Shown: positions 46,161 through 53,921 of the stretch, in pieces
How the letters are laid out: each line of letters starts with the position of its first letter
How positions within the stretch are numbered: position 1 is the stretch's first letter
Assembly (NCBI GenBank): GCA_029547205.1
Contig: JAKPPT010000072.1
Span: forward strand, 310,001 to 374,000
DNA: 64,000 nucleotides
Source: Spirochaetota bacterium
Lineage (GTDB): Bacteria; Spirochaetota; Spirochaetia; Treponematales; UBA12059
Direction: 5' to 3'
Notes under the pieces: generated by a model
Databases searched by the model: none
Told to the model about the DNA's origin: nothing
What the model saw: the letters and a program-made list of their open reading frames with translations, nothing else
Translations under genes and position numbers: made by a program

Positions 46161-46295
46161 ATATTTGTTCCTCTATTTTTATTGTAGTAAAGCTTACATA
46201 CAATTTCAAACAGCTTTCTCACATGCTCTGTATCTATCTCATTTTTTATGATATAATGATTAAAACTATTGTTTATTACGATTGAGGAGTCTCTG

Positions 46296-48047
46296 ATGCC
46301 AGAACAACTAATTGTTAAAAATCTTCCATTTATAAAGATTTTACCTCGATGGGCACAAGAGCTTTCGTATAAATACTGTTCAAAAACTGCAAATCTGTAT
46401 ATTTTACATGGCAATATCCGTGATTTCCTTCCTCACAAAATGGATGAAGATGAATTTATCTTCGTAAAGCTTCAAAATTATATTTCCGAAGTACTTTTTG
46501 GAAATCGTGACATTATAATTTTCTGGGATCGATCAAGTGGCATTTCTTTTTGTACATCAGAAATGCATCGTGAGTATGTAAAACTTATGAAAGAAAAATA
46601 CCCTGATTCCTCAGAATCAGACTTATTTTCATCTGATCCAGCTGTTGCATTTAAGCTTTTAGAAAAGTATTTTTTATTACATATTCCACATAAAAAAAGA
46701 ATTGTTCTTATAATTGATTATGCAGAAACTGTTATTCCCAGAGATGAAATAGCGAGACTCGATGAAACGGACCGTTACTGTTTTGTAACATTAAACCGGT
46801 GGTCTCATGATCCGCTTTTTACTCAAGGTGATGTTTCGATAATTCTTTTTTCGGAAAATCTTTCCGAATTAAACTCTCGAATTGTGGGAAGTCCATCAAC
46901 AGTCAAAATAGAAATTCCAATGCCAGATGAAATGGTACGAACAAGTTTTTTTAAGTTTCTTGAAAGAAAAAATACGCTGCTCGTTGAAAAAGGTATTACA
47001 AATGAAGCACTAGGTGCAATTACAAGTGGTCTTAATCTCTTGAATTTAAATAGGCTTGCAGCAGAAAGCTTTCAAGAAAACCGGGAAATTTCAATGGAAT
47101 ACCTTAAAGCAAAAAAACGGGAAATTATTGAAAGTGAAGCAAATGGACTTCTTGAGTTTATTGATACCGATCATGATCTCTCATATATTTCCGGACACGA
47201 TTTTGTTCGCCGCCGACTAAAGAATGCAGCACGAGCATTAAAACAAGGACGTCTTGATGTCCTTCCAATGGGTTATCTCATTGCAGGCCCTGTTGGAACC
47301 GGTAAAAGTTTTATGGTTTCCGCATTTGCAGGCGAAATTGGTATACCGATGGTGCGATTCAAAAATTTTCGCTCTAAATGGCAAGGGGTAACAGAGTCAA
47401 ATCTGGAACGTGTTCTTTCCATTCTTAAAGCAATGGCCCCTGTTGCCGTTATGATTGACGAAGCAGATGCATTTTTAGGCGATCGCAATCAAGAAGGAGA
47501 TTCTGGAACATCTAACCGCATTTTTGCTCAGCTCGCATCTTTTATGGGTAATACCGAATACCGGGGAAAGATAATCTGGTTTTTGATAACCTGCCGTCCA
47601 GACCTACTTCCTATCGATATGAAGCGACAGGGAAGAGCTGAAGAACACCTTGCGCTTTTTTATCCAGAAACTGAAGAAGAAAAACTCGATTTGTTTGCTG
47701 TCCTCGTTAAAAAACTGGATCTTCAAATACGAAAATTTCCCGTACATGAAATATTAAAAAAATTTAAACATGAGTTTTCAGGAGCAGATCTGGAATCTGT
47801 TTTGATTCGTGCCAAATTTAAAGCGACAATGGATAATAGAAGTTTCGTTACAAAAGAAGATATTGAAGAAACACTCAAAGATTTTGTTCCGCCTGCTTAT
47901 CCGCATGAAATTGAGCTACAGAATCTTGTTGCAGTTCTGGAATGTACAAGTAAAGAAATGGTTCCCAAACGTTTCCAGAATCTTGACAGAACAAAACTGG
48001 TTCAGGATATTCAGGAGCTTAAGAGTCTGCTTGGAGAGCGCAGCTAA
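46296..48047 (+). CDS. AAA+ ATPase, first module apparently degenerate, second intact
   Basis: Second module GPVGTGKS, VAVMIDEADAF, SNRIFAQLASFMGN, CRPDLLP; no Walker A in first module. Confidence 0.8.
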   Translation: MPEQLIVKNLPFIKILPRWAQELSYKYCSKTANLYILHGNIRDFLPHKMDEDEFIFVKLQNYISEVLFGNRDIIIFWDRSSGISFCTSEMHREYVKLMKEKYPDSSESDLFSSDPAVAFKLLEKYFLLHIPHKKRIVLIIDYAETVIPRDEIARLDETDRYCFVTLNRWSHDPLFTQGDVSIILFSENLSELNSRIVGSPSTVKIEIPMPDEMVRTSFFKFLERKNTLLVEKGITNEALGAITSGLNLLNLNRLAAESFQENREISMEYLKAKKREIIESEANGLLEFIDTDHDLSYISGHDFVRRRLKNAARALKQGRLDVLPMGYLIAGPVGTGKSFMVSAFAGEIGIPMVRFKNFRSKWQGVTESNLERVLSILKAMAPVAVMIDEADAFLGDRNQEGDSGTSNRIFAQLASFMGNTEYRGKIIWFLITCRPDLLPIDMKRQGRAEEHLALFYPETEEEKLDLFAVLVKKLDLQIRKFPVHEILKKFKHEFSGADLESVLIRAKFKATMDNRSFVTKEDIEETLKDFVPPAYPHEIELQNLVAVLECTSKEMVPKRFQNLDRTKLVQDIQELKSLLGERS

Positions 48048-48052
48048 ACTGT

Positions 48053-48976
48053 TTATAAATCTACTAACGAATTAAGTATAAAATTCCAGAGCCGCTCACA
48101 ATCGCTCTGTGTCGTATGGTATCCTGTTCCTGATGTTTGCTGGCGAATGACAATAATGCCATAACTACCTTCTCTTTTATTTTCGATTATAAAATTCCCG
48201 CGTTTCAATCTCGCAAGCAGTTTATCGTATGTCGCTCCAGTTCCTTTTGTCATAGCAACTGCATACAAATATGGAACATCACCGTTTGGTCCCTTATTGA
48301 TTGCAATTTGAAACTGTACACCAATAAAATCATCCGGAGCATTTCTTTTTTCAAGCATAAACCGAATATCTTCTGGTATATCATTTTTTTGCTTATCTTG
48401 ATCAAAGCGAATATAAGGTGTCAAAATATAACCTATAGGCTTTTTGCTATTAAGAAGCGTTATAGCCGTAGAAAATTTTTTATCCAGTTCAGGCGGAATA
48501 AAAAAATTAGCAGTTGCAGCAAACAATGCTGGAATAAAAAACAATAACCCATCAGCAAGCACAAGTGCAAATCGAGGATTACTATCTCCTAATGAAAAGA
48601 TTATTATAAAAATTGTTAACACAATAAGAGCAATTGAACAGCCTATGGTATTTGAATATTTTTTGCCTTGCTTCCTAATTTGTTGTATCGATTTAAATAT
48701 TTTATCAACAGTATTGATTTCTACCGGACGCCAGTCTTCTAATCCCTGATCATCAGGTTTATTTGTTATTGGCTTCTGCCCTAACAGCACCCATGCGCCT
48801 ACTGTAAACGGAAGTCCTATAAAAAAATTTTGTGTTAGGAATTGAATGGCAATAGCAATACAATACAGTGCTGTAGAGAAAATAACGCGTGTATAAAATG
48901 GCAACGTAAACCAGGAAAATTTGATTTCGTTTAATTTCATGGCAGATGCGTTGCTTTTTACTGTATTGCTATTCAT
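48053..48976 (-). CDS. Membrane protein of unknown function, last gene of rSAM cluster
   Basis: At least four TM segments; ATGA overlap with rSAM gene. Confidence 0.6.
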   Translation of the reverse strand: MNSNTVKSNASAMKLNEIKFSWFTLPFYTRVIFSTALYCIAIAIQFLTQNFFIGLPFTVGAWVLLGQKPITNKPDDQGLEDWRPVEINTVDKIFKSIQQIRKQGKKYSNTIGCSIALIVLTIFIIIFSLGDSNPRFALVLADGLLFFIPALFAATANFFIPPELDKKFSTAITLLNSKKPIGYILTPYIRFDQDKQKNDIPEDIRFMLEKRNAPDDFIGVQFQIAINKGPNGDVPYLYAVAMTKGTGATYDKLLARLKRGNFIIENKREGSYGIIVIRQQTSGTGYHTTQSDCERLWNFILNSLVDL

Positions 48977-50313
48977 GGATTCCTCCTACAGTTAATGATC
49001 TCGTTAAGGCTATTATATTTCCAATACAACGGACAGGCAGCCTGACAGGCAGTGAACGCACTGCATGTTTTACAAAACTCTGGAGCGTATTCTTTTTGTT
49101 TAAACCATTGAGCTTTTGAGGAAAACCAGAGATGTTTGAAATCATCGGTGAGTATATTTCCTATTGGCTCGTCATACGAAGAACATGGTAATATGCTTCC
49201 ATCAGGTGCAATGGATATTAAGCCATCGCATGCAGCACAATTTTTATTTCCAAGCCCATGCGCAACTGGGTTATACAGACAAAGCGGAAGTGGAGAGTAC
49301 CAGAAAAACTGCACACCTGCACTGTATGCTGCTTTTTGTAATGTGGGTAATAACTCAGCACATGCTGTATATGAAACAGCAAGCTCATCACGATAATTCT
49401 CTGTGCCTGCAGGAATATATAAATTCATTGACATTCGGTTTATACCGAGGCTTTTTACGAACTGAGGAATTTCTCTTACTATCTCTTTATTGCATGCAGT
49501 TACTGTTGTGTTTGTTTGAACTGAAATTCCAGCTGAGAGTAAATGCTCAATACCCTGAATAGTTTTTTCAAACGAACCAGGAGTACCAGTTAAGTAATCA
49601 TGCGTTTTTGCATCAATTGACTCTAAACTAATCTGAGCTGTTCTCAATCCTGCTCTATATAAAGCATGAGCTCGGTTTTTGGTAATAAGTGTTCCATTTG
49701 AAATAAGATTGACGCGCAAACCTATTGATATAGCAAAGGAAATGAGCTCTTCTAAATCATCTCTTAGTAGTGGCTCCCCTCCAGTAAATGAAAAAAAAGG
49801 TATTTTGCATTGTTCTTTAAATATGTTGATAACATGCTTACTGTGTTCTGTATCAAGTTCAGGATATTTTTCTGCTATTGAGTTTTGTAATCCAGTACAG
49901 CCAGCATAGCAAAACTTGCATGCATTGGTACATCGATAGGTTACTGCAATTTCTCCAATAACAGGCAGTTTAGTGAACGAAAAATCATAGCGCTGTGTTT
50001 GCAATGCTACTGGTTTCCCGCTGTACACTGCATGTATATCTCTGAAAAATTGTTTTATATGCTCCAATTTCTGAGCATTGATACCAGGAAGATTTGATAG
50101 TTTCCTACCACTTTCAATATAACGAATAAGTTGAATTCCGGTGTTGTTTGTTTTGTATACAAGATTCGGTGGAATAATTATCACATTATCTTCTTCTCGA
50201 GCATATGCATACGGTTTTAAATTATTCCAGAAATCATAAATCCAGCTTAATTCATTTTCCACTGCCTGTTTTTGTTCAATGATCTTGATTGCATCTGACT
50301 GTGTAATATCCAT
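48973..50313 (-). CDS. Radical SAM/SPASM enzyme with RRE/PqqD-like N-terminus (predicted peptide-modifying maturase)
   Basis: CTNACKFC = CX3CX2C; FTGGEPLLRDD; SPASM GSILPC, CKTCSAFTACQAAC, terminal C; N-terminal VIIIPPNLVYKTNNTGIQLIRYIESG resembles PqqD; ATG at 50313 with GGAG at 50325-50328 region upstream. Confidence 0.85.
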   Translation of the reverse strand: MDITQSDAIKIIEQKQAVENELSWIYDFWNNLKPYAYAREEDNVIIIPPNLVYKTNNTGIQLIRYIESGRKLSNLPGINAQKLEHIKQFFRDIHAVYSGKPVALQTQRYDFSFTKLPVIGEIAVTYRCTNACKFCYAGCTGLQNSIAEKYPELDTEHSKHVINIFKEQCKIPFFSFTGGEPLLRDDLEELISFAISIGLRVNLISNGTLITKNRAHALYRAGLRTAQISLESIDAKTHDYLTGTPGSFEKTIQGIEHLLSAGISVQTNTTVTACNKEIVREIPQFVKSLGINRMSMNLYIPAGTENYRDELAVSYTACAELLPTLQKAAYSAGVQFFWYSPLPLCLYNPVAHGLGNKNCAACDGLISIAPDGSILPCSSYDEPIGNILTDDFKHLWFSSKAQWFKQKEYAPEFCKTCSAFTACQAACPLYWKYNSLNEIINCRRNP

Positions 50314-50315
50314 AC

Positions 50316-51983
50316 TCAATGTGCTCCGCCAGAAACACATGCACTATGGCATGCACTATGACAAGCGCTGTGACATGCACTATGGCATGCATCATGACAG
50401 GCACTGTGGCAAGCATTATGGCAGGCGCTATGACATGCATCTACGGTACCAATATTTGCTGGAGTATAACAACCACTATAGCAGGCATTGGACCGCATGA
50501 ATTGAGCATATGATCCAGAAAGTTCATTTGGCATACCGAGTCCCGCATATACATCATGGTGAGTATAAACAAATGCATAACTTCGCCAGTACCAGTAATA
50601 CACATCGGTACTGCTCATTGAACGAGCAGCATTATTTTCTTCTTGATAGTCAAGCATTTTTTTGCGGTAATAAGCCTTTGTAGCTTCTATATCACAATCC
50701 CAGATTTTAGCCTGCAAGTTTTTTATTATTGTTTCATAAAAATCAGCAAGCATGCCAGGCAACACTTCTCCTTTTGAATTAAATGAAGCAAGAAATTGTT
50801 CTTCATATTCATGTTGTGCTTTCCTATCACTGAGAATTGTTATCTGAAGTGGATTTTTACTTACAATTTCGATGATGCCTTGATGCTTCAAGCCCTCAAG
50901 CATAATAGCTGTTATCTGTGGCAAGGTAAATTCCAACAACAGGGCTGCTTCTACTGGATGTAAGTCTTTATTAATTTTACCAGGAACTTGAAATGTTCCA
51001 CTAATAAGTTTGGGTGGCTCCCATGAATCTCCTGCCCATGCAAGATCTTTTATTGCATTGGTAATTTCTGAATATTTTTTGCTTTTTTTTATATATGCAA
51101 GCATTGAGACAAGTATCAGAGTCCCAAAAACTGCAATGAACAAGAGCGGGCGATGACGAAAATATTCAAATGCATTTTGTGATTCATCTGATATACTGGT
51201 ATTAAAATTTTCTGTTTCTTCAGTATTTTGATTTGCTTTACTACTGCTTTTGTCTGAAATACTATTTTGTTTTTGCAAATATTCATACTGCATGGGGATA
51301 TAGTCTTTTGGGAAATATATCTGAATATGCTGTTTTTCATATGCAGCATGATTTTTTTTATAAAACAAAATAGTTAAGTAGTAACCATCATTACCTTTGG
51401 TGCCATAATAATCGATGCTGTTTTGTTTATTCACAAATTGCTCAGTCAGCATTGGTATTGCTTTTTTTTCTTCCTCTGAGAGTTCAGCACCCGTTACCCT
51501 GACAGGAAGTATTAACCGCACAGCCTGATACTGCTGATTATATTCCCATTCAACAGGAGCCCAGTTAAAATAAAAATATTCTTCTGTATCTGCTGTAGTT
51601 AATCCAACTAAACCAGTTTTACCAAAATCTCCAGCATAATTTAAGAAATATATTGCTTTTCCAGAAAATCTTTTGCCATTTGCTAAAATAACATCATACT
51701 TGTTAGAACCGACCTTAGCTATAGAAAGCGGAATTCGTGTGTTATCTGGAAAATCCGCAAAACAGCGTTCCATATTCCAGACAGGATTAAAAGATTCTCC
51801 TTCAAAATAAAAGCCACTCATGGTTCCGCTCGTAACGTTCCATTCAAGCTGATAATAAATTTCTGCTTTACCTTGAGGAGTCAGTGAAACAGTAACTTCT
51901 GTTGACACAAGTTCTGTATCTAATGCTGACACAGTACATGCAATGAGCAGTGCAGCAATACACCAAACTAAACGATAGCTCAT
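50316..51983 (-). CDS. DUF2207-like membrane protein with C-terminal (ACHS)n repeat tail
   Basis: Signal peptide, extracytoplasmic domain, TM LLFIAVFGTLILVSMLAYI, then cytoplasmic-like domain ending in nine ACxx tetrapeptides. Confidence 0.75.
   Translation of the reverse strand: MSYRLVWCIAALLIACTVSALDTELVSTEVTVSLTPQGKAEIYYQLEWNVTSGTMSGFYFEGESFNPVWNMERCFADFPDNTRIPLSIAKVGSNKYDVILANGKRFSGKAIYFLNYAGDFGKTGLVGLTTADTEEYFYFNWAPVEWEYNQQYQAVRLILPVRVTGAELSEEEKKAIPMLTEQFVNKQNSIDYYGTKGNDGYYLTILFYKKNHAAYEKQHIQIYFPKDYIPMQYEYLQKQNSISDKSSSKANQNTEETENFNTSISDESQNAFEYFRHRPLLFIAVFGTLILVSMLAYIKKSKKYSEITNAIKDLAWAGDSWEPPKLISGTFQVPGKINKDLHPVEAALLLEFTLPQITAIMLEGLKHQGIIEIVSKNPLQITILSDRKAQHEYEEQFLASFNSKGEVLPGMLADFYETIIKNLQAKIWDCDIEATKAYYRKKMLDYQEENNAARSMSSTDVYYWYWRSYAFVYTHHDVYAGLGMPNELSGSYAQFMRSNACYSGCYTPANIGTVDACHSACHNACHSACHDACHSACHSACHSACHSACVSGGAH
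50334..50438 (-). repeat. Tandem 12-bp coding repeat, nine AC(H/V)(S/N/D) units
   Basis: Direct translation; codons vary synonymously (gca/gct/gcc, tgc/tgt, cat/cac, agt/agc). Confidence 0.95.
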
Positions 51984-52594
51984 AAGTATTCCTTTTGCTC
52001 AACTTTTTCTGCAGGTAAAATATCATGTGCAATAGAAAGGGATGTGTGCTCTATTTTTCTGCTAATTTTTTCAAGTTCCGCAAGCACCCTATCTCTTGCA
52101 AAGGGAAACACATGCTGGTCATCAAGCTTAAATCGAGCTTCAATCGCTGTTTCGTCAAGTTCATGTAAGAGCGCATCGATGAGTTCAGGAACTTGTTCTA
52201 TTTCATATGTAACAACAGGATCATGTGTCTTATTTTGTCTGCATATTGCAATATATTTTTCTGAACGAAAAGTAATTTGAGCAACTAATCTTGATAAGTG
52301 TTCATCAGTGAAACGCATAGTTTTAATTGTTCGTACATTTTGCTCAAGTTTTTCAAGCTGAGCTTCAACAGTCATCCATGTTTCAGTTTCATGTGTCGTT
52401 ATAGCAGAAGTAATTCCTACTTTTGTATACAATCCAACAATCACCATTATGACTAACAAAGCAAAACCAGATACAATACCAATAAACCAGGAAACAAATA
52501 ATGATACAACTAATGCAACTACAATTGAAAAGGTAATTGTAAGTGCACCAAATGGTGATTTAAAAAAAGATTTAATAAATTGAAAGATAGTCAT
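51980..52594 (-). CDS. Membrane protein with coiled-coil-like cytoplasmic domain
   Basis: N-terminal TM pair; helical charged C-terminus; ATGA overlap with repeat protein gene. Confidence 0.6.
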   Translation of the reverse strand: MTIFQFIKSFFKSPFGALTITFSIVVALVVSLFVSWFIGIVSGFALLVIMVIVGLYTKVGITSAITTHETETWMTVEAQLEKLEQNVRTIKTMRFTDEHLSRLVAQITFRSEKYIAICRQNKTHDPVVTYEIEQVPELIDALLHELDETAIEARFKLDDQHVFPFARDRVLAELEKISRKIEHTSLSIAHDILPAEKVEQKEYL

Positions 52595-52607: not shown

Positions 52608-53921
52608 TTAGTGTAAAATCGTTATTTCAACTCTACGATTGCGCGCCCGGTTTTGCTCTGTGTCATTGGGTGCTATTGGTTTATCTGCACCCCACCCTTT
52701 ATATATAAATCTTCCAGCAGGGACTCCCCGTTTTACTAATTCATCAACTATTTTCTTTGCTCGTGCCTCCGAAAGCGCATATTGTCCTTTAGGATTTCCA
52801 ACATCTGCTGTGTGTCCTTCGACTAAAAACATTCTATCAGGAATAGAAAGCAATATTTTGGCAATTTCATCAAGTCGTGGCTTTTCAGATGGAAGCAGTT
52901 CATCGCTGTCTGGTAAAAATCGAAGATCAAACAGTAAGATTACCTGTCCCTTAGGAGAATCAACAATTTCATATAAATTATTTTTAACTATGGATGTATT
53001 TTGATTTTGCGACCCTGTATCTGAACTAGGATTTTGCGCAGTCGTATTCGATGATTCGGTATCTTGATTTTGACCTGTTTGTGTTACATTTGTTTCGCTG
53101 TTTTGTTGATTTTGTGTATCCTGCAAAAGACCCGTGCGTCCCAAAGCAAGTAAAACAGGTTCCGAGGAAAACGCACCGCGAATAAAATGTAACAAAAAAC
53201 CTTTAAATCGAACGGTTTTCCCGCTCTGATAGTAGTATGTTTCATCAATAATTTCGCGAATAAAAATTGGGAAACCTGTATTCATAGAAACATAAATATC
53301 TGCAATTCTTCCACCTTCGGTTCGTATAAGCGAAGGTTCTCCATATTTATCTGTTCCCTTATATCGCACTGCATATTGTGCTTTAATATAATAAACCTGT
53401 TCGTTATTATATTTTGTAATCCCGGCAAATTCATACGCAACCAACACAGGCACACGTACATGCTGTTCTTGTGTATTACCCCTGATAACGACAGTTCCTG
53501 TACCCTCCCAGGTATTACCCTGAACAAGTGGCTGCTGTGGTATGAGTGGAATGCCACGCAAAAGCGGATATCCTGCATCTTTAGTTATTGCAAAAGTTCC
53601 ATCTTTTTTTTCAATATAGTTTATTGGGAAAACTGTATCCATGCGCTTTGCTATTGGAATCATATCACGATAAGCTTCTTCTAGTATTAATACATCTCCA
53701 GAATACTGTAATCCATCTGGTATTTTTTTTATTACAACATCTAATCGTGCTTCCCGATACACATGACCAATATACTTTCCATTCTCATATTTTGAAAAAT
53801 CTGAACGCTCAATAATAACAAGAGGTCCTTCAATACTAGATTGAACAATTGTAATTGTATCAGCATAGAGTAAAAAGAAAACACAAAAACTAATTACAGA
53901 ACAAAGCACTTTCCTGTTCAT
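52608..53921 (-). CDS. OmpA-family protein
   Basis: Signal peptide; Gln/Asn/Thr-rich linker; VEGHTADVGNPKGQYALSEARAKKIVDELVKRGVPAGRFIYKGWGADKPIAPNDTEQNRARNRRVEI. Confidence 0.9.
   Translation of the reverse strand: MNRKVLCSVISFCVFFLLYADTITIVQSSIEGPLVIIERSDFSKYENGKYIGHVYREARLDVVIKKIPDGLQYSGDVLILEEAYRDMIPIAKRMDTVFPINYIEKKDGTFAITKDAGYPLLRGIPLIPQQPLVQGNTWEGTGTVVIRGNTQEQHVRVPVLVAYEFAGITKYNNEQVYYIKAQYAVRYKGTDKYGEPSLIRTEGGRIADIYVSMNTGFPIFIREIIDETYYYQSGKTVRFKGFLLHFIRGAFSSEPVLLALGRTGLLQDTQNQQNSETNVTQTGQNQDTESSNTTAQNPSSDTGSQNQNTSIVKNNLYEIVDSPKGQVILLFDLRFLPDSDELLPSEKPRLDEIAKILLSIPDRMFLVEGHTADVGNPKGQYALSEARAKKIVDELVKRGVPAGRFIYKGWGADKPIAPNDTEQNRARNRRVEITILH

Follow-up and report, generated by a model that had tools for sequence, protein, structure and literature searches.

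A membrane protein encoded in a Spirochaetota genome ends in a strict Ala-Cys-His-Ser repeat, and its gene co-occurs with that of a radical SAM (rSAM)/SPASM enzyme in bacteria and archaea. From sequence comparison and structure models, we consider it likely that a dedicated rSAM maturase takes this tail as its core substrate, within a two- to three-gene protein-maturation system whose product would remain attached to the protein. The window is the whole 64,000-nucleotide stretch of contig JAKPPT010000072.1 that was analysed, and all coordinates refer to it. The features are as follows.

50316..51983, minus strand: tail protein gene, 555 aa (ORF confirmed; AF2 model, hydropathy, homologues)
50319..50438, minus strand: repeat tail, (ACHx)8-ACVS-GGAH, residues 516-555, likely core region (ORF, homologue alignments, DNA repeat analysis)
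50439..50501, minus strand: pre-repeat segment, residues 495-515, possible leader or recognition segment (alignment)
48973..50340, minus strand: predicted radical SAM/SPASM maturase, 455 aa, with a PqqD-like RRE at about residues 31-108 (Pfam, AF2, Foldseek, N-domain profile)
48053..48976, minus strand: Y307, conserved third gene (found in 63 loci; alignment, hydropathy)
51980..52594, minus strand: Y204, protein with two TM stretches and a helical part, encoded upstream of the tail gene (neighbourhood comparison)

Gene block around the tail

The rSAM gene overlaps the tail gene by 25 nt, with the tail-gene stop lying inside the start of the rSAM gene, while Y307 overlaps the rSAM gene and Y204 the tail gene by 4 nt each. 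Given these overlaps, Y204-tail-rSAM-Y307 looks like one transcription unit. Hydropathy predicts three or four TM stretches for the membrane protein Y307, whose C-terminal domain carries Y236/Y238 and a GYHT motif. The rSAM gene and then Y307 followed the tail gene in all 16 family neighbourhoods fetched, and these two were the neighbours conserved across phyla; Y204 was kept in every family genome whose assembly reached upstream of the tail gene, and a few other spirochaetes had it too. Each locus compared had one conserved rSAM gene. Neighbourhood comparison of the loci revealed no protease or exporter among the conserved neighbours, and Pfam found no MNIO (DUF692) among the window neighbours scanned.

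Two further genes flank the block. An AAA+ ATPase gene (46269-48047, plus strand) is about 80% identical in the related genomes L031 and L034, compared with about 50% for the operon, and also adjoins the operon in L200; this proximity may be functional or ancestral. Upstream, the gene of an OmpA-family protein (52608-53921, minus strand) is syntenic with the operon, PgeF and a 577-aa protein in most family genomes.

Host membrane protein

The AF2 model of the tail protein (pLDDT 82.5) and hydropathy predicted a signal peptide or TM stretch (residues 1-20), an extracytoplasmic beta domain (22-225), a TM stretch at about 277-300, a globular cytoplasmic domain (343-452) and the Cys/His tail (501-555); the beta domain was modelled confidently and the tail as disordered. 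Lysines follow the TM stretch, so the C-terminus should be cytoplasmic, on the same side as the rSAM enzyme, and by this topology the tail probably lies on the cytoplasmic face. For the related TIGR04222 proteins, a published topology argument assigns the tails to the periplasm, which conflicts with the side of the membrane proposed here (PMC12452194).

The initial annotation had described the host protein as DUF2207-like. Matches among homologues lend this family assignment some support: Pfam DUF2207 (PF09972) matched 14 of 39 homologues weakly (best 1.7e-5) and TIGR04222 matched seven of the 39, also weakly (best 1.6e-7), with the window copy unmatched by either model. Homologues are about 500-930 aa long, compared with 555 aa for the window copy. 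A search of solved structures with the tail protein returned no significant match, and the Foldseek resemblance of the beta domain to ribophorin I and the M1 aminopeptidase N-domain was judged to reflect a shared sandwich fold, not function.

Anatomy and conservation of the repeat tail

The translation of 50316-51983 (minus strand) ends in FMRSNACYSGCYTPANIGTVD-ACHS-ACHN-ACHS-ACHD-ACHS-ACHS-ACHS-ACHS-ACVS-GGAH, that is, eight ACH[S/N/D] units and one ACVS unit. The nine Cys of these units at four-residue spacing, eight of them followed by His, had been counted in the initial annotation, and the 555-aa ORF bears the counts out. Its placement of the repeat at 50334-50438 was right at the start (A516 begins at 50438) and one codon (3 bases) short at the end, since S551 ends at 50331. 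The tail region (55 residues) contains 11 Cys and 9 His, compared with 4 Cys and 8 His in residues 1-500. In the DNA, the tail corresponds to a degenerate 12-nt repeat (8.6 copies, 71% matches), whose units differ synonymously and write Ser with both AGY and TCN codons.

In a comparison of 79 distinct tails, A, C and H were 100% invariant over the last five units. Position 4 was mostly Ser, with D, N, Q, H and G also tolerated, especially in early units; mostly seven to nine units preceded the final ACV. Codons for Ala, Cys, His and Ser were mixed across these homologues, including both Ser codon families. Outside the tail, identity averaged about 30% in the homologue alignments, against invariant A/C/H columns within it, and the FMRSxxCxxGC of the pre-repeat segment was conserved within the taxonomic family and variable beyond. 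Fixed A/C/H columns alongside freely varying codons rule out a chance origin of the tail. As first proposed from the window copy alone, selection appears to act on the tail peptide, a conclusion that the scrambled codons of the 79 tails support.

Distribution and co-occurrence with the rSAM gene

Within the taxonomic family, the tail protein was found in 21 of 23 genomes and nine of ten genera at 48-58% identity, and every homologue with a complete C-terminus carried nearly the same tail, ACHS ACHN ACHD (ACHS)n ACVSG. Beyond the family, a DNA pattern for four consecutive ACHx units was scanned against one genome per species (GTDB). About 70 of 80 loci among the matches listed encoded the same protein family with a C-terminal repeat, spread, again among the matches listed, over about 20 phyla of bacteria and two groups of archaea. 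The bacterial holders among those matches were Spirochaetota, Myxococcota, Planctomycetota, Pseudomonadota, Thermodesulfobacteriota, Bacillota, Acidobacteriota, Verrucomicrobiota, Elusimicrobiota, Omnitrophota, Nitrospirota, Gemmatimonadota, Calditrichota, Armatimonadota, Chloroflexota and others, and the archaeal ones Heimdallarchaeota and Thermoproteota. Most holders are metagenome-assembled genomes, so that single placements may err, but the breadth is independent of any one of them. Desulfobulbus alkaliphilus DSM 24258 (L075) is an example of a holder in culture. These loci were preselected for four ACHx units, and profile searches free of that requirement agreed. Eight pattern matches (L068, L069, L070, L073, L077, L101, L103 and L124) were dropped as chance or frame artefacts. 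A single-protein scan of genome contigs, which detects close relatives only, gave no match.

The co-occurrence of rSAM and tail protein, which the initial annotation had suggested examining, was essentially perfect. Class-wide profiles found both in the same 21 of 398 genomes, adjacent in all 21, and neither in the other 377; two extra tail-profile matches (G108, FSFC; G175, FIAC) were low-complexity artefacts. No homologue of the N-terminal protein beside the rSAM gene lacked a Cys-rich tail, an arrangement that would have spoken against the initial proposal: the sole apparent case, a tail-less fusion in G241, has the tail in another frame, probably through repeat collapse in the assembly. 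In a second phylum, searched by rSAM profile, 8 of 284 genomes were positive, and the repeat lay beside the rSAM gene in all seven neighbourhoods fetched. Of 197 genomes in the phylum to which the Heimdallarchaeota locus belongs, 30 had an rSAM orthologue, with the tail protein divergently transcribed beside it in most loci fetched.

The two genes were both present but apart in a WOR-3 genome and an Asgard genome (G412, G751), and one Myxococcales genome had two tail proteins (L045, L051) and one rSAM of this kind; that some tail proteins lie away from the rSAM gene was counted against the maturase reading, and the joint retention of both genes without linkage, or in divergent orientation at Asgard loci, was counted in its favour. 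At another Asgard locus, L275 (G813:C8:2981-3229), all that is left of the tail gene is an N-terminal fragment; a recombinase-like ORF lies close by, and the rSAM gene is intact. In the rSAM tree the window copy grouped with other Spirochaetota. Distances among rSAM, tail protein and Y307 were correlated (Mantel r 0.77-0.88, 0/1000 permutations), showing that the three co-evolve.

The radical SAM/SPASM enzyme

Pfam identified Radical_SAM (1.2e-23) and SPASM (3.4e-10) in the window rSAM, both above cut-off, and in 28 and 27 of 28 homologues, respectively. The CX3CX2C motif (C137/C141/C144) and the SPASM cysteines C354, C368, C386, C423, C426, C432 and C436 were invariant in the alignment. A PqqD domain was detected at the N-terminus of 11 of the 28 homologues (best 6.6e-11, 42.8 bits vs a cut-off of 23.4); the N-domain of the window enzyme fell below the Pfam PqqD threshold, yet it matched a profile of divergent members, and the AF2 model (pLDDT 90.3) showed three strands followed by helices. 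Foldseek ranked SkfB and SuiB first for the predicted fold, and both are peptide maturases. These data support the earlier reading of the neighbour as a peptide-maturase-type radical SAM/SPASM enzyme with an RRE-like domain, as far as profiles and models can indicate. No NCBIfam equivalog was reached: the best models, the heme-pathway SPASM enzymes NirJ2 (141 bits) and AhbD, scored about 140 where the cut-off is 500, so homology does not reveal the reaction.

Sister and variant systems

A second rSAM clade, in archaea (305-354 bits), adjoins distant DUF2207-like proteins with tails GGGGGGGCACACACACACAGGGR or CACVSCACACACVSCACACAGGGV. In one small archaeal phylum, a (CA)n/CVS tail lay beside the sister rSAM at 16 of 18 loci, and the other two (G898, G899) had distant tail-protein relatives elsewhere in the genome. 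The sister tails lack His and retain Ala-Cys, which, along with the freedom seen at position 4, suggests that the Ala-Cys pair is what reacts. The sister clade is paired with a tail of its own, so the tail grammar shifts with the enzyme clade. In the archaeal proteins tested, the (CA)n/CVS tail matched no family model. Archaeal DUF2207-like proteins with such tails beside a PqqE-like sister rSAM were observed at L278, L279, L281, L282, L283 and L252-L267.

Six variant systems (L054, L063, L085, L094, L096 and L203) have longer tail proteins (about 590-950 aa where complete) with ACACHS or ACVHS insertions in the tail, and Y307 was not found in them; three of them (L054, L085, L096) also encode, next to the rSAM, a coiled-coil-like protein of about 405-423 aa. 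One genome of the same class, G077, holds a standard and a variant system together (L203 = G077:C149; G077:C248).

Comparison with known systems

The nearest published parallel is that of the TIGR04222 (near_uncomplex) membrane proteins, whose Cys-containing tails adjoin MNIO enzymes (PMC12452194). The systems share a large extracytoplasmic domain, a C-terminal low-complexity Cys tail and a gene beside an oxidative peptide-modifying enzyme. They differ in the partner (MNIO there, a PqqD-rSAM-SPASM enzyme here), in the tail (Ser/Gly-rich and argued to be periplasmic there, a strict (ACHS)n repeat here) and in distribution (mainly Actinomycetota there, across phyla including archaea here).

The CXXX-repeat system (TIGR04115/TIGR04117) likewise has Cys every four residues in a target beside a SPASM rSAM, whereas the target here is a DUF2207-like membrane protein. 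The window rSAM scored 26.4 bits against the TIGR04115 cut-off of 350; for TIGR04117 (cut-off 50), the window protein scored 7.6 bits and the genome search 16.1, and that model also matched seven control genomes. The known classes named in the initial annotation, His-Xaa-Ser systems and ranthipeptides or sactipeptides, were not supported either. His-Xaa-Ser systems also have His/Ser-rich repeats beside an rSAM, but the repeat here is His-Ser-Ala-Cys, a single conserved rSAM per locus replaces the HxsB/HxsC pair, and the HxsC4 model gave 82 bits against a cut-off of 500. The sactipeptide, ranthipeptide and streptide maturases SkfB and SuiB resemble the window enzyme in predicted fold and RRE-rSAM-SPASM layout, but at about 15-20% identity, and they act on short peptide precursors; a 555-aa membrane protein is not the short secreted precursor of a ranthipeptide or sactipeptide. 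In the TvgB/TvgA poly-cyclopropylglycine system, a single rSAM-SPASM enzyme acts on every copy of a tetrapeptide repeat (PMC9062424), but that repeat is TVGG, in a free precursor and without Cys.

Literature searches found no description in open papers of the repeat string or of DUF2207 with radical SAM; Haft and Basu 2011 and Clark and Seyedsayamdost 2022 lay outside their scope, and a prior listing is possible. The findings point to a widespread protein-modification system that is apparently undescribed.

Proposed mechanism and alternatives

In the proposed mechanism, a DUF2207/TIGR04222-like single-pass membrane protein with a signal peptide would display the (ACHS)n-ACVSGG tail on the cytoplasmic face. 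The rSAM/SPASM enzyme would dock on it through its N-terminal PqqD-like RRE and modify the repeats serially, one after another. A Cys-carbon thioether is the commonest outcome of such enzymes on Cys-rich targets, as with the sactipeptide and ranthipeptide maturases. The reaction we favour is an oxidative sulfur-to-carbon cross-link of Cys, probably at the invariant Ala-Cys pair, which would yield a rigid polycyclic tail. No conserved exporter or protease lies nearby, so the product is probably kept on the membrane protein, as a prosthetic tail, and not released as a small peptide. At a guess, the modified tail may serve metal or redox work. Heme c attachment was set aside, as the tail has no CXXCH motif and its presumed location is cytoplasmic.

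Best placed among the alternatives, and still rather unlikely, is modification of the tail by non-thioether chemistry, such as Ala/His oxidation or cross-linking, epimerisation or attachment of a tetrapyrrole-type group. NirJ2 and AhbD were the top-scoring NCBIfam models, and TvgB acting on TVGG shows that a repeat-modifying rSAM can perform C-C chemistry (PMC9062424); however, the NCBIfam scores were all far under the family cut-offs, and Cys in every repeat of both tail grammars favours sulfur chemistry. There is a slim chance that the tail binds metal as an unmodified Cys/His rod and that the rSAM acts on something else in the operon. Nine Cys and nine His per 40 residues would bind soft metals, and modification of the tail is so far deduced from sequence, but two points argue against such a rod: a SPASM maturase with an RRE goes with the tail obligately, unlinked genes included, and the tail grammar shifts with rSAM clade. 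Slimmer still is the chance that the tail is a secreted RiPP core, cut off and exported as a bacteriocin or metallophore: RRE-rSAM-SPASM logic matches RiPP clusters, but no protease or exporter was found among the conserved neighbours, the core is fixed across phyla, unlike bacteriocins, and it forms the terminus of a large, conserved protein of the membrane. A functionless low-complexity DNA expansion, which the period-12 DNA repeat might suggest, is refuted by scrambled codons, amino acids invariant across bacteria and archaea, and a length of mostly 7-9 units.

Biological significance

The rSAM-modified sequences known so far are mostly short peptides that are secreted and diverge fast. In this system, a repeat of 40 residues at the end of a membrane protein has hardly changed between spirochaetes and Asgard archaea and has an enzyme dedicated to it, a combination that speaks for a basic role in physiology. 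Because the unit is repeated, its chemistry is easy to read by mass spectrometry, and the split between (ACHS)n and (CA)n tails provides a natural comparison for substrate rules. As a tentative picture, which we hold to be more doubtful than the maturase assignment itself, the system may be an ancient protein-borne prosthetic tail of Bacteria and Archaea, in which ACHS units on a membrane sensor or transporter become cross-linked metal or electron carriers at its cytoplasmic end; archaea would have another version, built on (CA)n. If the prosthetic-tail reading is true, this would be a maturation system for membrane proteins and not a natural-product pathway.
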